IMG/VR virus record: IMGVR_UViG_3300022539_000093
Location: 1 to 23,977 of that record
Direction: 5' to 3' (one strand)
Length of the DNA: 23,977 nucleotides
From: a virus
Below the pieces are notes generated by a model. That model did not search any database and had not been told where the DNA came from. It was given only the letters and a program-made list of their open reading frames with translations. This document shows, one piece after another, positions 6,669 through 23,730 of this stretch. A program made the position numbers and the translations under genes. Every line of letters starts with the position of its first letter. Position 1 is the first letter of the stretch.

Positions 6669-7100
6669 ATGGCACGACTAGGATCACACGCGGTTGAGCT
6701 GCAGAAGGGGGACGGGGCCAGCCCAGAGGTTTTCACGGCTAACGTAGCCCAGGTGCTTTCCATCGGTGGCCCTTCGTTGAGCCGCGAGACGATCGACACG
6801 ACCGACGCCGATGCGGCCGATGATTGGCGAACCTTTATAGCGAGCTACATCGATGGGGGGGAGATCTCATTGGAGATCAATTACGACCCGGATGAGGCGA
6901 CCCATGCCCCGACCGCGGGGATACTGGAGGCGTTCGCAAGTAATGTGGCGACGAATTATAGGATTCAGTTTCCAACGTCGCCGGTGACCACCTGGTCATT
7001 CAGCGCGATATGCGTTGGCTTTGAATCGTCAGCGCCCCACGACGGCGTATTAACCGCGTCCGTGACCTATAAGGTCTTGGGCAAGGTAACATTAGCGTAA
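6669..7100 (+). CDS. Major tail tube protein, copy 1
   Basis: 143 aa preceded by GGAGGG. Residues 30-80 include VAQVLSIGGPSLSRETIDTT, DDWRTFIASYIDGGEISLEI and NYDPDEATH, which match phage lambda/HK97-like major tail tube proteins (the ETIDTT.....W....ASYIDGGEI pattern). The C-terminal FESSAPHDGVLTASVTYKVLGKVTL is the conserved last beta-strand pair. In the virion, hexameric rings stack to form the DNA-conducting tube. A second copy follows after a 13-base gap, with 46 of 49 residues identical across the central core, so the pair arose by tandem duplication. Copy 1 has a longer loop near residues 13-22 (KGDGASPEVF). Confidence 0.9.
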   Translation: MARLGSHAVELQKGDGASPEVFTANVAQVLSIGGPSLSRETIDTTDADAADDWRTFIASYIDGGEISLEINYDPDEATHAPTAGILEAFASNVATNYRIQFPTSPVTTWSFSAICVGFESSAPHDGVLTASVTYKVLGKVTLA

Positions 7101-7113
7101 GGAGGATAACGAC

Positions 7114-7527
7114 ATGGCAAGATACGGAGGACACGGTTGTACGATCCTACGTACGAGCGGGACCAAGATCGCTCAGGTTCTGAGCATATCGGGACCGTCG
7201 ATCAGTCGCGAGACGATCGATACCACCGACGCGGACGCGACCGACGACTGGCGGACGTTCATCGCGTCTTATATAGACGGCGGAGAAATATCGTTGGAGA
7301 TCAACTATGATCCCGATGACGCCACCCATGCCCCGGCCGCGGGGATACTCCTGGATTTCGCCGCGACGACGTTGGACAACTGGAGTCTGGTATTTTCTGA
7401 CGCTTCACCGGCGGTTACCTGGACATTCGACGCGCTGGTGACAGGCTTCGAGCCTTCGGCACCCCACGACGGAGTACTGACCGCATCGGTAACGCTAAAG
7501 ATCATGGGTAAGATCACGCTGGCTTAA
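7114..7527 (+). CDS. Major tail tube protein, copy 2 (tandem paralogue)
   Basis: 137 aa, preceded by AAGGAGGA. It has the same architecture as copy 1 with the same ETIDTTDADA core and SAPHDGVLTASVTLKIMGKITL terminus, but a different N-terminal segment (HGCTILRTSGTK) and a different central variable loop. In the shared core most codons differ only at the third base, so the protein is under purifying selection while the DNA has diverged. Both copies keep intact frames and strong ribosome sites, so neither looks like a decaying relic. They may build mixed tubes or specialise, for example one as tube and one as a terminal ring (inference). Confidence 0.9.
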   Translation: MARYGGHGCTILRTSGTKIAQVLSISGPSISRETIDTTDADATDDWRTFIASYIDGGEISLEINYDPDDATHAPAAGILLDFAATTLDNWSLVFSDASPAVTWTFDALVTGFEPSAPHDGVLTASVTLKIMGKITLA

Positions 7528-7557: not shown

Positions 7558-7914
7558 ATGAAAATCGGACGTAAGAGCGTAGCGGTTTACTACGACTGGG
7601 TGAGGATCAAGCATATCCAGGATGAGCTGGGGCTAGACTTCGAGGAGAAGATCGCCCAGGCCTGTCTGGATACGGACCTGGTAACGCTTTCAAAAGTCCT
7701 CGCCATAGGTACCGGGCTAACGGCGGAGGAAATCCAGAAGGCTTCGCCGCCCGTCTTAACGGTGATCGAGAGTATCACCCGGGCGATCAACCTCGCCTTT
7801 CACGGCACGGAGGAGCCGGTTCCCATAAACCCTCTGATGACGATTCTGAGAAAGATTCTGAAGCCGTTGACCTGGTTCTTCAGACACAAAAAGCCGCATA
7901 TCGCTACGGCCTGA
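7558..7914 (+). CDS. Tail assembly chaperone (gpG-like, short form)
   Basis: 118 aa. ACGGAGG lies upstream of the ATG. The helical sequence (WVRIKHIQDELGLDFEEKIAQ, then DLVTLSKVLAIGTGLTAEEI, then VIESITRAINLAFHG) fits GTA gp10 / gpG-type tail assembly chaperones, which sit between tail tube and tape measure and keep the tape measure soluble during assembly. The reading frame ends at 7912-7914, but the -1 frame continues with typical gpT-like sequence, so this is probably the short product of a programmed frameshift pair. Confidence 0.85.
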   Translation: MKIGRKSVAVYYDWVRIKHIQDELGLDFEEKIAQACLDTDLVTLSKVLAIGTGLTAEEIQKASPPVLTVIESITRAINLAFHGTEEPVPINPLMTILRKILKPLTWFFRHKKPHIATA

Positions 7915-8186
7915 AACCAGCTGAGTTCTGGATTCTGACGCCTTATGAAACCCGTATCTGGATAGAGGCGAGGATCGATGGGATCAACGAGCAATACAAG
8001 CTGGCCACATGGACGGCCTGGCACGTAGCCGCGTTCAGCCGGGTTAAAAAGATGCCCGATCTTAAAACGATCATACGGAAGATCGGTGGCGAGAAGCCCA
8101 AAAAGCAGAGCACGAAACAGATGCTGGAGATGGCCGAAATGATCACCGGCATGATGGGTGGAAAAGATCTGAGAAAAAAGGGCTAA
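7558..8186 (+). CDS. Tail assembly chaperone, -1 frameshift form (gpGT-like)
   Basis: The frame shifts by -1 near 7887-7893. The -1 frame is open from 7839 to the TAA at 8184-8186. If slippage occurs at C AAA AAG, 112 residues of the short form join 97 residues starting AAYRYGLKPAEFWILTPYE. The GLKPAEFW.LTP.E segment is the well-known start of the downstream chaperone domain in many phages, where it is read in place of the short form's last residues. The extension has no start codon or ribosome site of its own at its beginning. Family knowledge: the minor GT product binds the tape measure and recruits tube protein. A separate internal initiation cannot be fully excluded. Confidence 0.75.
7887..7893 (+). 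promoter_or_regulatory. Candidate -1 ribosomal frameshift slippery site
   Basis: CAAAAAG in zero frame is C AAA AAG. A -1 slip re-pairs the P-site AAA on CAA and the A-site AAG on AAA. It lies upstream of the zero-frame stop (7912) and downstream of the last -1-frame stop (7836-7838), the only window where the two frames can join, and is the only A-run there. It departs from the canonical A AAA AAG by its first base. Confidence 0.65.
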
Positions 8187-8960
8187 TTAAAAAATATTTA
8201 GAATGGCATTTAAAATGAGCGAGAAAATAAACTAGTTTGGGAAATCCTAAAAAAGGGGGAGCAATCGAAATATTTTCCAGTTGACCATTAAAAAAAGGAA
8301 GAAATAAAAACAGATTTAGAAATCGGTAAAATAAAGGTATAATTAGAAAATTTTCAGATTGCGTTTCAAAATTGGAGAAAAATAAAACTAGTTTTAAAAA
8401 AGTTGAAAATTGAATGATGATTGAAAAATTTCCTAAAAGCATTTGAAAAATGAGTAAAATAAAAAACAGTTTAAAAATATCTGGAAATCAAAGATCATCT
8501 AAAAATTTTTCAGATTGGATTTCATTTTTAGGATTTTTTAAAACTAGTTTCAGTAATTCTATTTTTCAGAGCCATTCTAGAAAATTTTTCAATCAGGTCT
8601 TGGAAAAATGATTTTATTCAAACCTTTTTTACGATTTCGATTTTTCAACTACCCGTCAAAATATTTTCATTTTGACTCGTGGAAACCGGTTCTTAGGCAA
8701 ACTATTCTCGAAATAGCGGTTTCTCGACGAGAAAAATGGCTCAGAATGGGCATAATATCCAATATTGCCCTTGAAAAATGGGAATCGGGCAAACTATTTT
8801 TGAGGGTATTATCCCTGAATAACTACCCGAGAAATATTTTAAATCGCTCTCAGAAAACGGAATCCGATAAAACCTTTCCTAGTGAGCCTTGTTGTCGAAT
8901 AGCCGCCATAAAAATATTTCATCCGGCTTTTGGAAATGGGATATGAGGGAAAGATAAAAT
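8187..8960. repeat. Degenerate 78-bp tandem repeat array, AT-rich, gene-free
   Basis: 774 bases of very AT-rich DNA between chaperone and tape measure, where phages normally have almost no gap. Units begin with a run like AAAATWTTTTC at 8191, 8268, 8347, 8425, 8502, 8581, 8658, about 8754, 8832 and 8911, so spacing is 77-79 except one longer unit (8658-8753). Each unit then carries a GAAAAATGG-like segment around base 22-30 and an AAACTAGTTT-like segment around base 38-48. ACTAGT recurs at 8231, 8387 and 8543, exactly 156 apart; the in-between units carry AACAG or AACCT. CAGATTG at 8355 and 8511 is also 156 apart. No ribosome site, tRNA or convincing gene is present. Later units (from 8658) are less AT-rich. 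Function unknown. Confidence 0.85.
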
Positions 8961-10631
8961 ATGGCCCCGCCTGTAGGCGCTCTTAGAGCAGATATAACCG
9001 CCTCGACAGCCAAGTTCGAGGCCGGAATGAAGAAGGCGAAGCGGATCGCCAAGCAGAATTCCAGTGCTATGAAACGCTCATTTGCCAAGCTCAAAGGCGG
9101 CGTAGGGAAGCTTACGAAATCCCTGGGTGGCCTTAAGATGGGCATCATCGCCCTGGCCGGGCCAGCCGTCATAGGCTTGCTCATTAAGAAGTCACTGGCC
9201 GCCGCGGATAAGATCGCTAAGATGTCCGATGCTGCGGGGATCTCCACGGATATGATGCAGGAATTATCCCACGCCGCGAACATCGCGGGGATCGAAACAT
9301 CGGCACTACAGGGCGCGATGACCAAGTTCACCAAAGGCATCGGCGAGGCGAAGGTCAATACCGGTACGATGGTCACGATCCTTCGTAAACTCGACGAGGA
9401 GCTACTGAATAATATCATAGCCTCAAAGGGCGCGGAAGAGGCTTTCGATCTCATCATGCAGAAGGCCGCCGGTATGGCCGATCAGACCCAGCGGGCTGCT
9501 CTGATGGCGGCGGCGTTCGGGCGTACCGCCGGGACTCAGATGGCGCTGCTCATCAAGGACGGCGTGAAGTCGTTGGACGACCTGCGCCAGGAGGCTCACG
9601 ACCTAGGCATCGTCATTGATGAAGATCTGCTCAGGGGGGCGGAGGCGGCGAACGACGCCATGACACGGCTGGGATCCTCGATTAAATCAAGGGTGACGGC
9701 GGCGGTGTTGACGCTCGCGCCGGCCATCGAAAACCTGGCGAAAAGCCTCCTTGACGGGTTACCCGCTCTATTCGGATGGATCGAGAACCTGGCCATAATG
9801 GCCGGGATAATCGAGAAGTCGTTAAAGATACAGTTATCGGAGGCGCAATCCCGCCTGGAGAAACTGGAAGGTATTATGGCGGCCCCGGGGTGGAAAAAAT
9901 TCATCCATCTGATGTGGGAGAATATTACTACTACCGATATACTTGTAAAGACGTGGCATGATTGGGAAACCGAAGCCATGATCTTGAAGGCGGATGTTGA
10001 CTTTTTGACGAAGGCGCTAGAAGATCAAGCGGAAGCAACGAGAGAGGCCGCCAGTGTTACCATCAGCAGCGGCCTTGATATTGATAAATCAATGAAGAAG
10101 ACGATCAACGTAGCGCGAGAGCTTCAGTCGGCATTTGGCGTCGCCTTTGATCCTGATCTTACAGAGGGAGAGAGAATTCAGAAATTCATATTGCAGTTGT
10201 TGAACATGATGGAAGGGGTGATACTTGCATCTGAGGCAGTAAGTGTAGCTATATCCAGCTCGTTCCTTGGAGCAATAGGATTGCCCGCCATCATTGCTTC
10301 ATTGATTGGTCTGGAAGCGGCTAAGGCAAAAGTTAGAACGGCGACATTCGCCAAGGGCGGTATCATAGACCGGCCCACGCTGATGCCGATGAGGGGCGGA
10401 ACGGCATTGGCCGGCGAGGCCGGCCCGGAGGCGATCCTACCGCTGACGAGGCTCCCCGGCGGGGACCTAGGTGTACGGGCGATAGGCGGTGGTGAGACTA
10501 AAATCGTACTGGAGGCCCATTTCTATAGCGCGCTCACCGATAAGCGTGTAGTGCAGGAGATCGTAATACCCGTCCTAGAAGAAGGCGCTAGACGGCTCGA
10601 GAACAAACTCGCACTGAGGGATAAAGGCTAA
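8961..10631 (+). CDS. Tail tape measure protein
   Basis: 556 aa. The N-terminus APPVGALRADITASTAKFEAGMKKA is the typical tape measure opening, followed by a long helical region with a hydrophobic stretch near 56-72 (LKMGIIALAGPAVIGLL) and Ala-rich segments (SALQGAMTKFTKGIGEA, MAAAFGRTAGTQMALLI). The C-terminus has AKGGIIDRPTLMP and GEAGPEAILPLTRLPGG, the standard closing motif of this family. The protein sets tail length and is ejected with the DNA; 556 residues is short and implies a short tail. The segment around 10080-10360 is visibly richer in A+T than the rest. GAGGGAAAG precedes the ATG, and the 78-bp array ends right at its leader. Confidence 0.92.
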   Translation: MAPPVGALRADITASTAKFEAGMKKAKRIAKQNSSAMKRSFAKLKGGVGKLTKSLGGLKMGIIALAGPAVIGLLIKKSLAAADKIAKMSDAAGISTDMMQELSHAANIAGIETSALQGAMTKFTKGIGEAKVNTGTMVTILRKLDEELLNNIIASKGAEEAFDLIMQKAAGMADQTQRAALMAAAFGRTAGTQMALLIKDGVKSLDDLRQEAHDLGIVIDEDLLRGAEAANDAMTRLGSSIKSRVTAAVLTLAPAIENLAKSLLDGLPALFGWIENLAIMAGIIEKSLKIQLSEAQSRLEKLEGIMAAPGWKKFIHLMWENITTTDILVKTWHDWETEAMILKADVDFLTKALEDQAEATREAASVTISSGLDIDKSMKKTINVARELQSAFGVAFDPDLTEGERIQKFILQLLNMMEGVILASEAVSVAISSSFLGAIGLPAIIASLIGLEAAKAKVRTATFAKGGIIDRPTLMPMRGGTALAGEAGPEAILPLTRLPGGDLGVRAIGGGETKIVLEAHFYSALTDKRVVQEIVIPVLEEGARRLENKLALRDKG

Positions 10632-16231: not shown

Positions 16232-17641
16232 ATGAACCGACTGGAGATTGATACGAAGGGGTTCGCCGAGCTCCAGGCCGGGAGGCCGAAGTGGAGTTTC
16301 GTTCGCGAGCTCGTATCGAACGCCTGGGATGAGGACGTGACCTTCTGTAAGGTCGACGTCATCAAGAACGGTAACCGGGCGGCGGTTATCACGGTGGAGG
16401 ATGACGGTGCCGGGTTCCGGGATATCAGGGACGCATACACGCTGTACGGGCATACGCCCAAGCGGGCCGATCCTACGGTACGCGGTCGTTTCAACCTCGG
16501 CGAGAAGGAGCTCGCCGCCATCGCGCTATCGATGCGGATCGAAACGACCTGCGGCGGGATCGAGTTCCCGCGGGGAGGTGGCCGGCGGAGGCTGACCAGG
16601 AGGCGTGAAAACGGAACGCTGGTGACTACCGAGGTGACGTGGACGAAAGCCGAAGTTAAGGAGGTAGTCGAGATGCTACGCCTGTTCATGCCGCCACCCG
16701 GTAAGCGGCTGATCGTGAACGACGAGACGTACTCGTCCCCCAGCGAGCCGATCGGCGCCCAGAAGGTAGCGCTCAATACGGTGATCGAGAGCGATGGCGT
16801 GCTGAAGGAATCGTATCGGATGACCGACGTGGTGATCCATCATAAACCTCATTGGACCGAAACGGGGTGGCTCTACGAACTGGGTATTCCGGTGCAGCCG
16901 CTGGCGTGCCGTTACTCGGCTGACGTGCAGCAGAAGGTGCCGATGCCGCCGAACCGCGATACCGTGGGCGATTGCTACCTCAGGGATATTTACGCGGTGA
17001 TCCTTAATAACGTCGCCGAAGGTCTTGATCCCGACGACTGTTCCGAGGCGTGGATCAGGCTTGCGATGGAGAGTTCCGATCTCGTTAGCGGTTCAGTACT
17101 CGCGGTCAGCAGAAAACGTTACGGCGAGAAGGTCGCGATCTGGTCGCCGGATTCGGAGGCCAACGAGAGGGCGATCGGCGCGGGTTTCATGCTCGTTCAT
17201 CCCCGTACGTTATCGGCATCTGAGAAGTCCCGCTTCAAAGAGGCGGGGATCGTCAGCGCCCACGAGAACTTCGGCGCGATCCCGAAAGCAGTGGACTATA
17301 TCCCGTTTGACGATTGGACGGAAGATATGATGATGTTAGCCAACTACGCCATATTCTTGAGTAACGAGCTACAGCGTAAGCGATTAAACGTGAGATTCTT
17401 CAGGGATTACGAGATTTCAGGGTTGGCGAATTTCTGCGATGGGACGATCACGTTCAATCTCGCCAAGATCACGCTCGATCCGATCATCCCTGGGCTGACG
17501 GGACTGATCCTGCACGAGCTTGCCCATCGGAAGGGTGAAGGACACTTCGATATAAAGTACATAAACGAGCTCGACCGGCTAGCGGGCGAGGCGGTTCATC
17601 TGGCGTTAGATAAGCCAGATGGGTTCCTGATAAAATCCTAA
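16232..17641 (+). CDS. GHKL ATPase fused to metzincin-type zinc motif
   Basis: 469 aa; GAGGTGAT precedes the ATG. The N-terminus is a GHKL (Hsp90/MutL/histidine-kinase type) ATP-binding domain: N-box E26-L-V-S-N30-A-W-D33, G1 box D58-G-A-G-F62, and a GRFNLGEKE segment (85-93) in the ATP-lid/G2 position. The middle (about 120-400) is not recognised. Near the end HELAHRKGEGH (428-438) matches the metzincin signature HEXXHXXGXXH exactly: three zinc-ligand histidines, catalytic Glu and the conserved Gly. No signal peptide, so it acts in the cytoplasm. As the first gene of the early-side module it may remodel or cleave a host target in an ATP-dependent way (inference). No His-kinase dimerisation domain is visible. 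Confidence 0.85.
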   Translation: MNRLEIDTKGFAELQAGRPKWSFVRELVSNAWDEDVTFCKVDVIKNGNRAAVITVEDDGAGFRDIRDAYTLYGHTPKRADPTVRGRFNLGEKELAAIALSMRIETTCGGIEFPRGGGRRRLTRRRENGTLVTTEVTWTKAEVKEVVEMLRLFMPPPGKRLIVNDETYSSPSEPIGAQKVALNTVIESDGVLKESYRMTDVVIHHKPHWTETGWLYELGIPVQPLACRYSADVQQKVPMPPNRDTVGDCYLRDIYAVILNNVAEGLDPDDCSEAWIRLAMESSDLVSGSVLAVSRKRYGEKVAIWSPDSEANERAIGAGFMLVHPRTLSASEKSRFKEAGIVSAHENFGAIPKAVDYIPFDDWTEDMMMLANYAIFLSNELQRKRLNVRFFRDYEISGLANFCDGTITFNLAKITLDPIIPGLTGLILHELAHRKGEGHFDIKYINELDRLAGEAVHLALDKPDGFLIKS

Positions 17642-18355: not shown

Positions 18356-18700
18356 GTGAAAGATAAACATAGGATACGAGTGGACGACGAAGTCTGGAAG
18401 GTCATCCAGAACATCTCGACGCCGATAACGGACACGCCGAACAGCGCGTTACGTCGTCTGCTGAAGCTGGATATACCGCCGTCATCGAATGTCACGAGGA
18501 TCAACGTCCTGACGTTCAACGATATGGACGTCGGAGACATCAGGACGTTCCGACCAGCTCTCGGCGAAACCTTTCAGGGCTTGCAGGGTAGGCTCGCGGC
18601 GACCGCCCACAGATTCGGTCAGAAAATGCAACGTAATTTTACGACTACCAGCCGTCACCCGAGATATCCCGGGAAGATCGTACTGAAGAGGGTATCATGA
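18356..18700 (+). CDS. Ribbon-helix-helix-like DNA-binding protein
   Basis: 114 aa from GTG 18356, with GAGAGAG upstream. Residues 5-37 (HRIRVDDEVWKVIQNISTPI, then DTPNSALRRLLKL) fit a ribbon-helix-helix domain like the SeqA N-terminus: a basic beta-strand, a helix, and the DTPN..LRRLL second helix. The C-terminal half (DVGDIRTFRPALGETFQGLQ, then LAATAHRFGQKMQRNFTTTSR) resembles a small domain seen in phage proteins with a GK..G..F.TR pattern. Probably a transcriptional regulator or DNA-organising factor. Its upstream leader contains alternative hairpins that could be its own operator. The stop overlaps the next start. Confidence 0.6.
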   Translation: MKDKHRIRVDDEVWKVIQNISTPITDTPNSALRRLLKLDIPPSSNVTRINVLTFNDMDVGDIRTFRPALGETFQGLQGRLAATAHRFGQKMQRNFTTTSRHPRYPGKIVLKRVS

Positions 18701-22616: not shown

Positions 22617-22862
22617 ATGAGCAAGATTGAATTAGAAGAAGGCCAAACATTAACCGCACATGACATTAATGGGATTTACAGGGCCATAAAAGCCGAGATC
22701 AGGGGTGCTGAGGATAAGCGGGGGGAGGAAGTGCTGGAGTTGGCATTGAAAGAAATTGAAGACGAGATAACAGATAACTTAGTAAGTCCTTTCGACAATG
22801 TTCTTAAACGTATTAATCTGGTAATCCGCCAAGCCTACAAGGAGCGATATGAGCAGGGCTGA
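22617..22862 (+). CDS. Small helical phage protein, unknown
   Basis: 81 aa from ATG 22617, where GGAGG sits 7 bases upstream; an alternative ATG at 22575 (AGGAGGG 4 bases upstream, overlapping the previous stop) would add 14 residues. The sequence is charged and helical: SKIELEEGQTLTAHDINGIY, then EIRGAEDKRGEEVLELALKE, ending VIRQAYKERYEQG. No motif recognised. It overlaps the start of the Gp37/Gp68-like gene by 14 bases, so these genes are transcribed together. Confidence 0.65.
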   Translation: MSKIELEEGQTLTAHDINGIYRAIKAEIRGAEDKRGEEVLELALKEIEDEITDNLVSPFDNVLKRINLVIRQAYKERYEQG

Positions 22863-23730
22863 CCGGCTGGCGAAGGGGATATACTGGGATCGGTCGTGGA
22901 ACCCATTTACGGGCTGTTCACCAGTAGGTGCGGGCTGTGATAACTGCTGGGCACGGCGAATGGCTGCCCGGCTCAGGGGCAGATGCGGTTATCCCGCTGA
23001 CGAGCCTTTCCGCCCGACGTTTCACCCTGATCGGCTATCCCAGGTGAACAGCACGCAGAAGCCGCAGGTAATAGCGGTGTGCTTTATGAGCGATCCGTTC
23101 CATGAGGCACACCAAGATAAAGATATTTTGCGGATGCTATACCAGGCTACGAGATGTCCGCAACACATCTTCATTGCCTTAACAAAGCGACCCGAAAGAA
23201 TGGCGGATATTTTAGACTATTATTCTAATTATTCCATCCCCAACCTCGTCGGCGGCGTCTCTGTCTGGGATCAGCCATCGGCGGACAGGATGATCTCGAT
23301 ACTGCTAGAGATGAATCTTGCGACTAGGATTGTATCGCTGGAGCCGTGTTTGGGGGCGGTAGATATTAGGAAGCATTTATCATTATTCAGTCATCAAGCC
23401 CTATTTCATAGGGTTAACGGCGTTATCATGGGCGGCGAGAGCGGGCCGGGGGCCAGACCGATGCACCCGGACTGGGCAAGATCGGTGCGGGACCATTGCC
23501 AGGCGGCCAACGTTCCTTTCCTGTTTAAGCAGCATGGGGAATATGTTGAATGGGACAGGGATAAATGGGGGGCACCATCAATATATGATTGCCCTTGGGG
23601 TGCCTTAGAACCAGCGATGAAACGCGTCGGCAAGAAAGCCGCTGGCCGCCTGCTGGACGGGCGAATGTGGGATGAGCTGCCGGAGGTGATGAATGCCCCC
23701 GCTGGCGAGAAGGCGCTGGAGACAACGTGA
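22849..23730 (+). CDS. Phage Gp37/Gp68-like protein (DUF5131)
   Basis: 293 aa; AAGGAGCG precedes the ATG. The N-terminus IYWDRSWNPFTGCSPVGAGCDNCWARRMA is the family signature (W..A.WNP.TGC....GC.NCYA), with three clustered cysteines as in radical-SAM-like folds. Further conserved segments: VIAVCFMSDPFHE, FIALTKRPERM, GGVSVWDQPSADRMISIL, RIVSLEPCLG, and GVIMGGESGPGARPMHPDW leading to PFLFKQHG. The family is common in phages and prophages; its chemistry is not established to my knowledge. The cysteine cluster and barrel-like pattern suggest an Fe-S enzyme that modifies a nucleic acid or nucleotide. Length is typical. Confidence 0.88.
   Translation: MSRADRLAKGIYWDRSWNPFTGCSPVGAGCDNCWARRMAARLRGRCGYPADEPFRPTFHPDRLSQVNSTQKPQVIAVCFMSDPFHEAHQDKDILRMLYQATRCPQHIFIALTKRPERMADILDYYSNYSIPNLVGGVSVWDQPSADRMISILLEMNLATRIVSLEPCLGAVDIRKHLSLFSHQALFHRVNGVIMGGESGPGARPMHPDWARSVRDHCQAANVPFLFKQHGEYVEWDRDKWGAPSIYDCPWGALEPAMKRVGKKAAGRLLDGRMWDELPEVMNAPAGEKALETT

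Follow-up and report, generated by a model that had tools for sequence, protein, structure and literature searches.

Between the putative tail assembly chaperone and the tape measure gene of an unclassified phage, 774 non-coding bases are organized as ten degenerate tandem units of about 78 bp, each of which is quasi-palindromic in a fixed register, with two dyads 39 bp apart. The quasi-palindromic character of the units, overlooked in the first-pass annotation of this DNA, points to symmetric protein-binding sites. We tentatively read the array as a non-coding cis-acting DNA element that offers symmetric sites to a dimeric or oligomeric protein and, less surely, as a late-region element of an origin-like or fork-stalling kind. 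Few regions of a phage genome are as compact and ordered as the tail operon, and a function is hard to avoid for a non-coding palindromic array of this length that splits genes normally overlapping or abutting.

The window, meaning the whole 23,977-bp stretch analysed, is an IMG/VR virus record. Its main genes lie on the + strand and include those for a head-tail connector, a tail terminator, two copies of the major tail protein, a putative tail chaperone pair, the tape measure and further tail proteins, together with a holin and, for recombination, a Cas4-type exonuclease and a RuvC-like resolvase. The immediate neighbourhood of the array is as follows.

7558-7914, + strand: putative tail assembly chaperone, first frame; named from synteny, without a family match
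7812-8186, + strand: second part of the putative chaperone, in an overlapping -1 frame; phrog_19318, function unknown
8187-8960, no strand: the array as a whole, an AT-rich quasi-palindromic repeat of 78 bp in ten degenerate units; from autocorrelation and unit profile
8961-10631, + strand: gene for the tail tape measure protein; best match to PHROG tail length tape measure families 4.5e-28

The stop codon of the putative chaperone -1 frame (8184-8186) adjoins the array, and the tape-measure start follows it at 8961. Just upstream, two neighbouring major-tail-protein genes (6669-7100 and 7114-7527) are 68% identical, a tandem duplication. The flanking genes had been taken to be normally adjacent, and this is borne out in 55 measurable tape-measure relatives, where the gap to the preceding ORF has a median of -4 and a maximum of 249. 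Among the window and 101 tape-measure loci scanned, an AT island is present only in the window, and no array-like element was seen at the relatives' loci surveyed. Wider searches gave the same picture. Blastn of the array against phages returned chance matches only, and its comparison with plasmids returned none. Exact-pattern scans of IMG/VR and GTDB genomes gave hits that all lack 78-bp periodicity; since such scans demand exact matches, an equally diverged array elsewhere would escape them. Neither the 758-aa tail protein nor the major tail protein led to a close relative of the phage among viral contigs, and the former led to none in the phage collection or in some 1,130 bacterial genomes. 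An intact gene of which the array is a decayed copy, raised at the outset as a counter-explanation, was not found; close phage relatives are absent from the collections searched.

The periodicity is strongest in the 5' part of the array. Over 8174-8560, identity is 0.576 at lag 78 (z 9.8) and 0.610 at lag 156 (z 9.4), the highest z among 300 dinucleotide-preserving shuffles being 4.4. Both peaks had been anticipated, as had the 156-bp higher-order pattern, which is present in the first five units. In the 3' half the period is weaker and peaks at lag 79 (8500-8960: 0.44, z 7.2). A unit profile recovers all ten units (E 1e-12 to 1e-5) and nothing else in the window; as the profile derives from these same units, the recovery measures their mutual consistency and not an independent discovery. 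The units placed by the profile, all on the + strand, are these.

8187-8264, + strand: unit 0, 78 bp
8265-8342, + strand: unit 1, 78 bp
8343-8420, + strand: unit 2, 78 bp
8421-8498, + strand: unit 3, 78 bp
8499-8576, + strand: unit 4, 78 bp, with a switch from A-rich to T-rich near 8506
8577-8655, + strand: unit 5, 79 bp, with a 1-bp insertion (also from the alignment)
8656-8747, + strand: unit 6, 92 bp, about 13 of them inserted near 8735-8747
8748-8826, + strand: unit 7, 79 bp
8827-8905, + strand: unit 8, 79 bp
8906-8960, + strand: unit 9, partial; the purine-rich GAGGGAAAG lies at its end, directly 5' of the tape-measure start

The first-pass annotation had described a degenerate ten-unit array with unit starts every 77-79 bases. 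The array itself stands, and its landmarks are exact (ACTAGT at 8231, 8387 and 8543; CAGATTG at 8355 and 8511). The spacing holds for the first five units, which are exactly 78 bp, and for the 79-bp units that follow, but not for unit 6, which a 13-bp insertion brings to 92 bp. Likewise, the interval is AT-rich overall, but its 3' half is less so (about 38% GC, as against about 22%). A tandem-repeat finder had been expected to detect the array; Tandem Repeats Finder misses it because the units are too degenerate. Register and dyad phase can thus reveal arrays that are beyond the reach of repeat finders.

The dyads are of two kinds, with cores that are AAAATWTTTT-like (A-type) or AAACTAGTTT (B-type). 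In unit 0 they were located by dyad phase.

8189-8200, no strand: A-type dyad, AAAATWTTTT-like, unit 0
8229-8238, no strand: B-type dyad, AAACTAGTTT, unit 0

Further copies of the A-type dyad keep the register, at intervals of about 78 bp, near 8272, 8350, 8428, 8506, 8585, 8662, 8834 and 8913. The B-type dyad has exact copies at 8385 and 8541 and is present in altered form in the remaining units. Complementary pairs cluster at a single phase of the 78-bp period. Since a periodic array inflates a dyad score, the null was obtained by permuting alignment columns, which keeps both the tandem array and the consensus dinucleotides. The observed score is 0.469, compared with a null maximum of 0.388 +/- 0.014, and none of 2000 permutations reaches it. 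Both halves of the array share the dyad phase: with units 5-8 alone, the best phase falls in the same place (p 0.003 with that phase fixed in advance; 0.115 if any phase is allowed). Under the stricter, column-permutation null, the signal for a 39-bp sub-period is modest (p 0.01), and that for a 19.5-bp AA/TT lattice, which looked strong in the raw spectrum, is not significant (p 0.065). The arms of a dyad are no more complementary within a unit than between units, indicating that the symmetry is a property of the consensus, as in a protein site, and not of hairpins. Neither 39 nor 78 bp is a whole number of helical turns, so the sites would not share one face of B-DNA. CTAG occurs 5 times in the 774 bp of the array and 24 times in the other 23.2 kb, an excess that comes mostly from CTAG being the centre of the B dyad. 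An A- and G-rich to T-rich strand switch within 8480-8680 lies near 8506, at the A-type dyad of unit 4.

The units are homologous, having arisen by common ancestry and mutation and not by convergence. Transitions make up 0.42-0.47 of between-unit mismatches, as opposed to 0.29-0.31 for random pairing at equal compositions, and this excess is what identifies the units as true copies. The 3' units are poorly conserved. By a parsimony count, at least 207 substitutions separate the units, compared with about two indels, namely one single-base gap column in the alignment and the 13-bp insertion; the early impression that spacing was kept while sequence diverged is thus confirmed. In wild-type Vibrio mutation-accumulation lines, indels were found at 60 per 219 and 22 per 138 substitutions (PMC5854121). 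These ratios, from an organism that is neither phage nor host, predict about 33-57 indels for 207 substitutions. That far fewer are seen points to selection on spacing, though the mutational spectrum of this phage and its host may differ from that of Vibrio.

The array also stands out in composition. GC is about 22-24% in its 5' part, about 38% in its 3' half and 54% in the window, and the array is the least stable duplex in the window. Runs of A/T of four or more account for 215 bases, compared with 71 +/- 16 in mononucleotide shuffles, whereas TpA steps are depleted (55 vs 94). A row of protein sites would fit the consensus-level dyads that lack pairing compensation, the fixed spacing and the A-tract richness. 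On this reading, a DNA-binding protein of phage or host, dimeric or oligomeric, would dock at the dyads and may load cooperatively along the roughly 770 bp, so that spacing would outweigh exact sequence. Less surely, the array may act as a late-region replication-origin-like or fork-stalling element, a role suggested by its low duplex stability, as for an unwinding element. It could alternatively be used as a platform for transcription control or partition. As to other marks of an origin, DnaA-like boxes are not clearly enriched (6 vs 2.9, p 0.075), and cumulative GC skew has no turning point at the array. The top sigma-70-like promoter match of the region lies in unit 1 at 8315-8343 on the + strand (TTTAGA-17-TATAAT, 10/12), and promoter-like matches do not recur in register along the array.

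Several known systems share some of these features. In the Bacillus phage SPP1, the late origin oriR, which is bound by gp38, combines direct repeats with an AT-rich unwinding region; the segment that holds them breaks into the order of the virion genes, and a fork-stalling role has been proposed for the origin (PMC6316719). By that description, the array resembles oriR in being an AT-rich non-coding stretch with direct repeats between virion genes (PMC6316719). The likeness is drawn from the description and not from the layout of boxes, the array itself comprising ten 78-bp quasi-palindromic units. Among the genes scanned in this 24-kb fragment, neither a gp38/gp39-like initiator nor a helicase loader was found. 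The iterons of λ-type origins, which bind the O protein, are also tandem, imperfectly symmetric sites near AT-rich DNA, as in the array. However, the λ sites number four, measure about 19 bp and lie inside gene O, whereas the array has about 20 dyads over 774 bp in a tail operon, and an O-like initiator was not found among the genes scanned in this 24-kb fragment. At the partition centromeres of plasmids and phages (parC, tubC), a ribbon-helix-helix or winged-helix protein binds cooperatively to short repeats arranged in an array. The tail-operon array differs from them in that its spacing is not helically phased, and no ParM, ParA or TubZ partner was seen in the fragment. A candidate lead for a DNA-binding partner is a 114-aa protein at 18356-18700, which may be of the ribbon-helix-helix class to judge from a sub-threshold match to SeqA_N (E 0.014); its predicted model is too poor to inform. 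If the array is an origin or a nucleoprotein platform, it would extend the oriR arrangement to a phage that is unrelated to SPP1 and differs in architecture. A more doubtful proposal is that it represents a new class of phage cis-element, a satellite-like quasi-palindromic array in a tail operon that selection on spacing would maintain as a nucleoprotein scaffold, be it for an origin, a fork barrier or the control of late genes.

A close second to the binding-array reading, and a real possibility, is that the array is a functionless satellite-like relic: a short palindromic unit, brought in by a moron-like insertion, would have been tandemly duplicated from 39 to 78 to 156 bp and then left to drift. 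The 156-bp higher-order pattern and the graded divergence are typical of tandem duplication, the transition excess is that of ordinary mutation, the GC content (about 0.24 vs 0.54) is foreign to the genome, and no relatives of the array were found in the collections searched. The array does resemble satellites and minisatellites in its tandem units and higher-order dimer structure, but differs from them in its extreme divergence by substitution, its near lack of indels and its in-register dyads. Similarly, it is like late-operon morons in being an AT-rich insertion between virion genes, but unlike them it holds no gene. Against a relic stand the scarcity of indels by the Vibrio yardstick (about 2 vs about 33-57) and the retention of the same dyad phase by the two halves. 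Phage genomes, moreover, are compact and tend to shed idle DNA.

It is improbable that the array is a decoy or silencing platform, on which a nucleoid or regulatory protein of the host, such as one of the Lrp type, would bind A-tract DNA in the late operon. The excess of A/T runs would suit such a role, as would nine Lrp-consensus-like matches where 4.1 are expected (p 0.015), most of them at A dyads. However, the Lrp signal is weak after correction for the eleven motifs tried, and the consensus is that of E. coli, which may not suit the host; the matches at A dyads are leads only. The depletion of TpA speaks against such a platform, and consensus sites for H-NS, IHF, Fis and ArgR are not enriched in the array. 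Intrinsically bent DNA, one of the roles first proposed, is rejected, in that curvature by a wedge model equals that of shuffles (z about 0 at all scales).

It is very unlikely that the array is what decay has left of a gene encoding a 26-residue repeat protein. The unit length equals 26 codons, indels are few, a 26-residue periodicity is seen in several frames, and three ORFs of 53-112 aa lie within the array. However, the frame is lost at the 79- and 92-bp units of the 3' half, and the ORFs carry no coding signal, in keeping with the original description of the interval as gene-free. Codon fit is negative in all three, and codon-position composition in the 112-aa ORF is flat (0.38/0.38/0.35, compared with 0.58/0.43/0.65 in the tape measure). 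No codon position in the array evolves clearly faster, and Pfam has no match to the six read-through translations of the array. A coding repeat protein or pseudogene is therefore rejected. Least probable of all, and likewise rejected, is the repeated structured RNA that had been suggested, here within the tail-operon transcript: the interval as a whole has a somewhat lower folding energy than shuffles (z -2.8 on the + strand, -3.4 on the - strand), but the two strands fold about equally, as expected for palindromic DNA, a consensus fold computed from nine units is devoid of pairs, compensatory pairing and base-pair covariation are absent within units, and a search of the array against Rfam gives no match.

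Elsewhere in the window, a 469-aa protein at 16232-17641 has a GHKL-type ATPase domain (HATPase_c_3, 1.8e-7), and a DUF5131 protein (1.6e-67) is encoded at 22849-23730, close to the end of the record.
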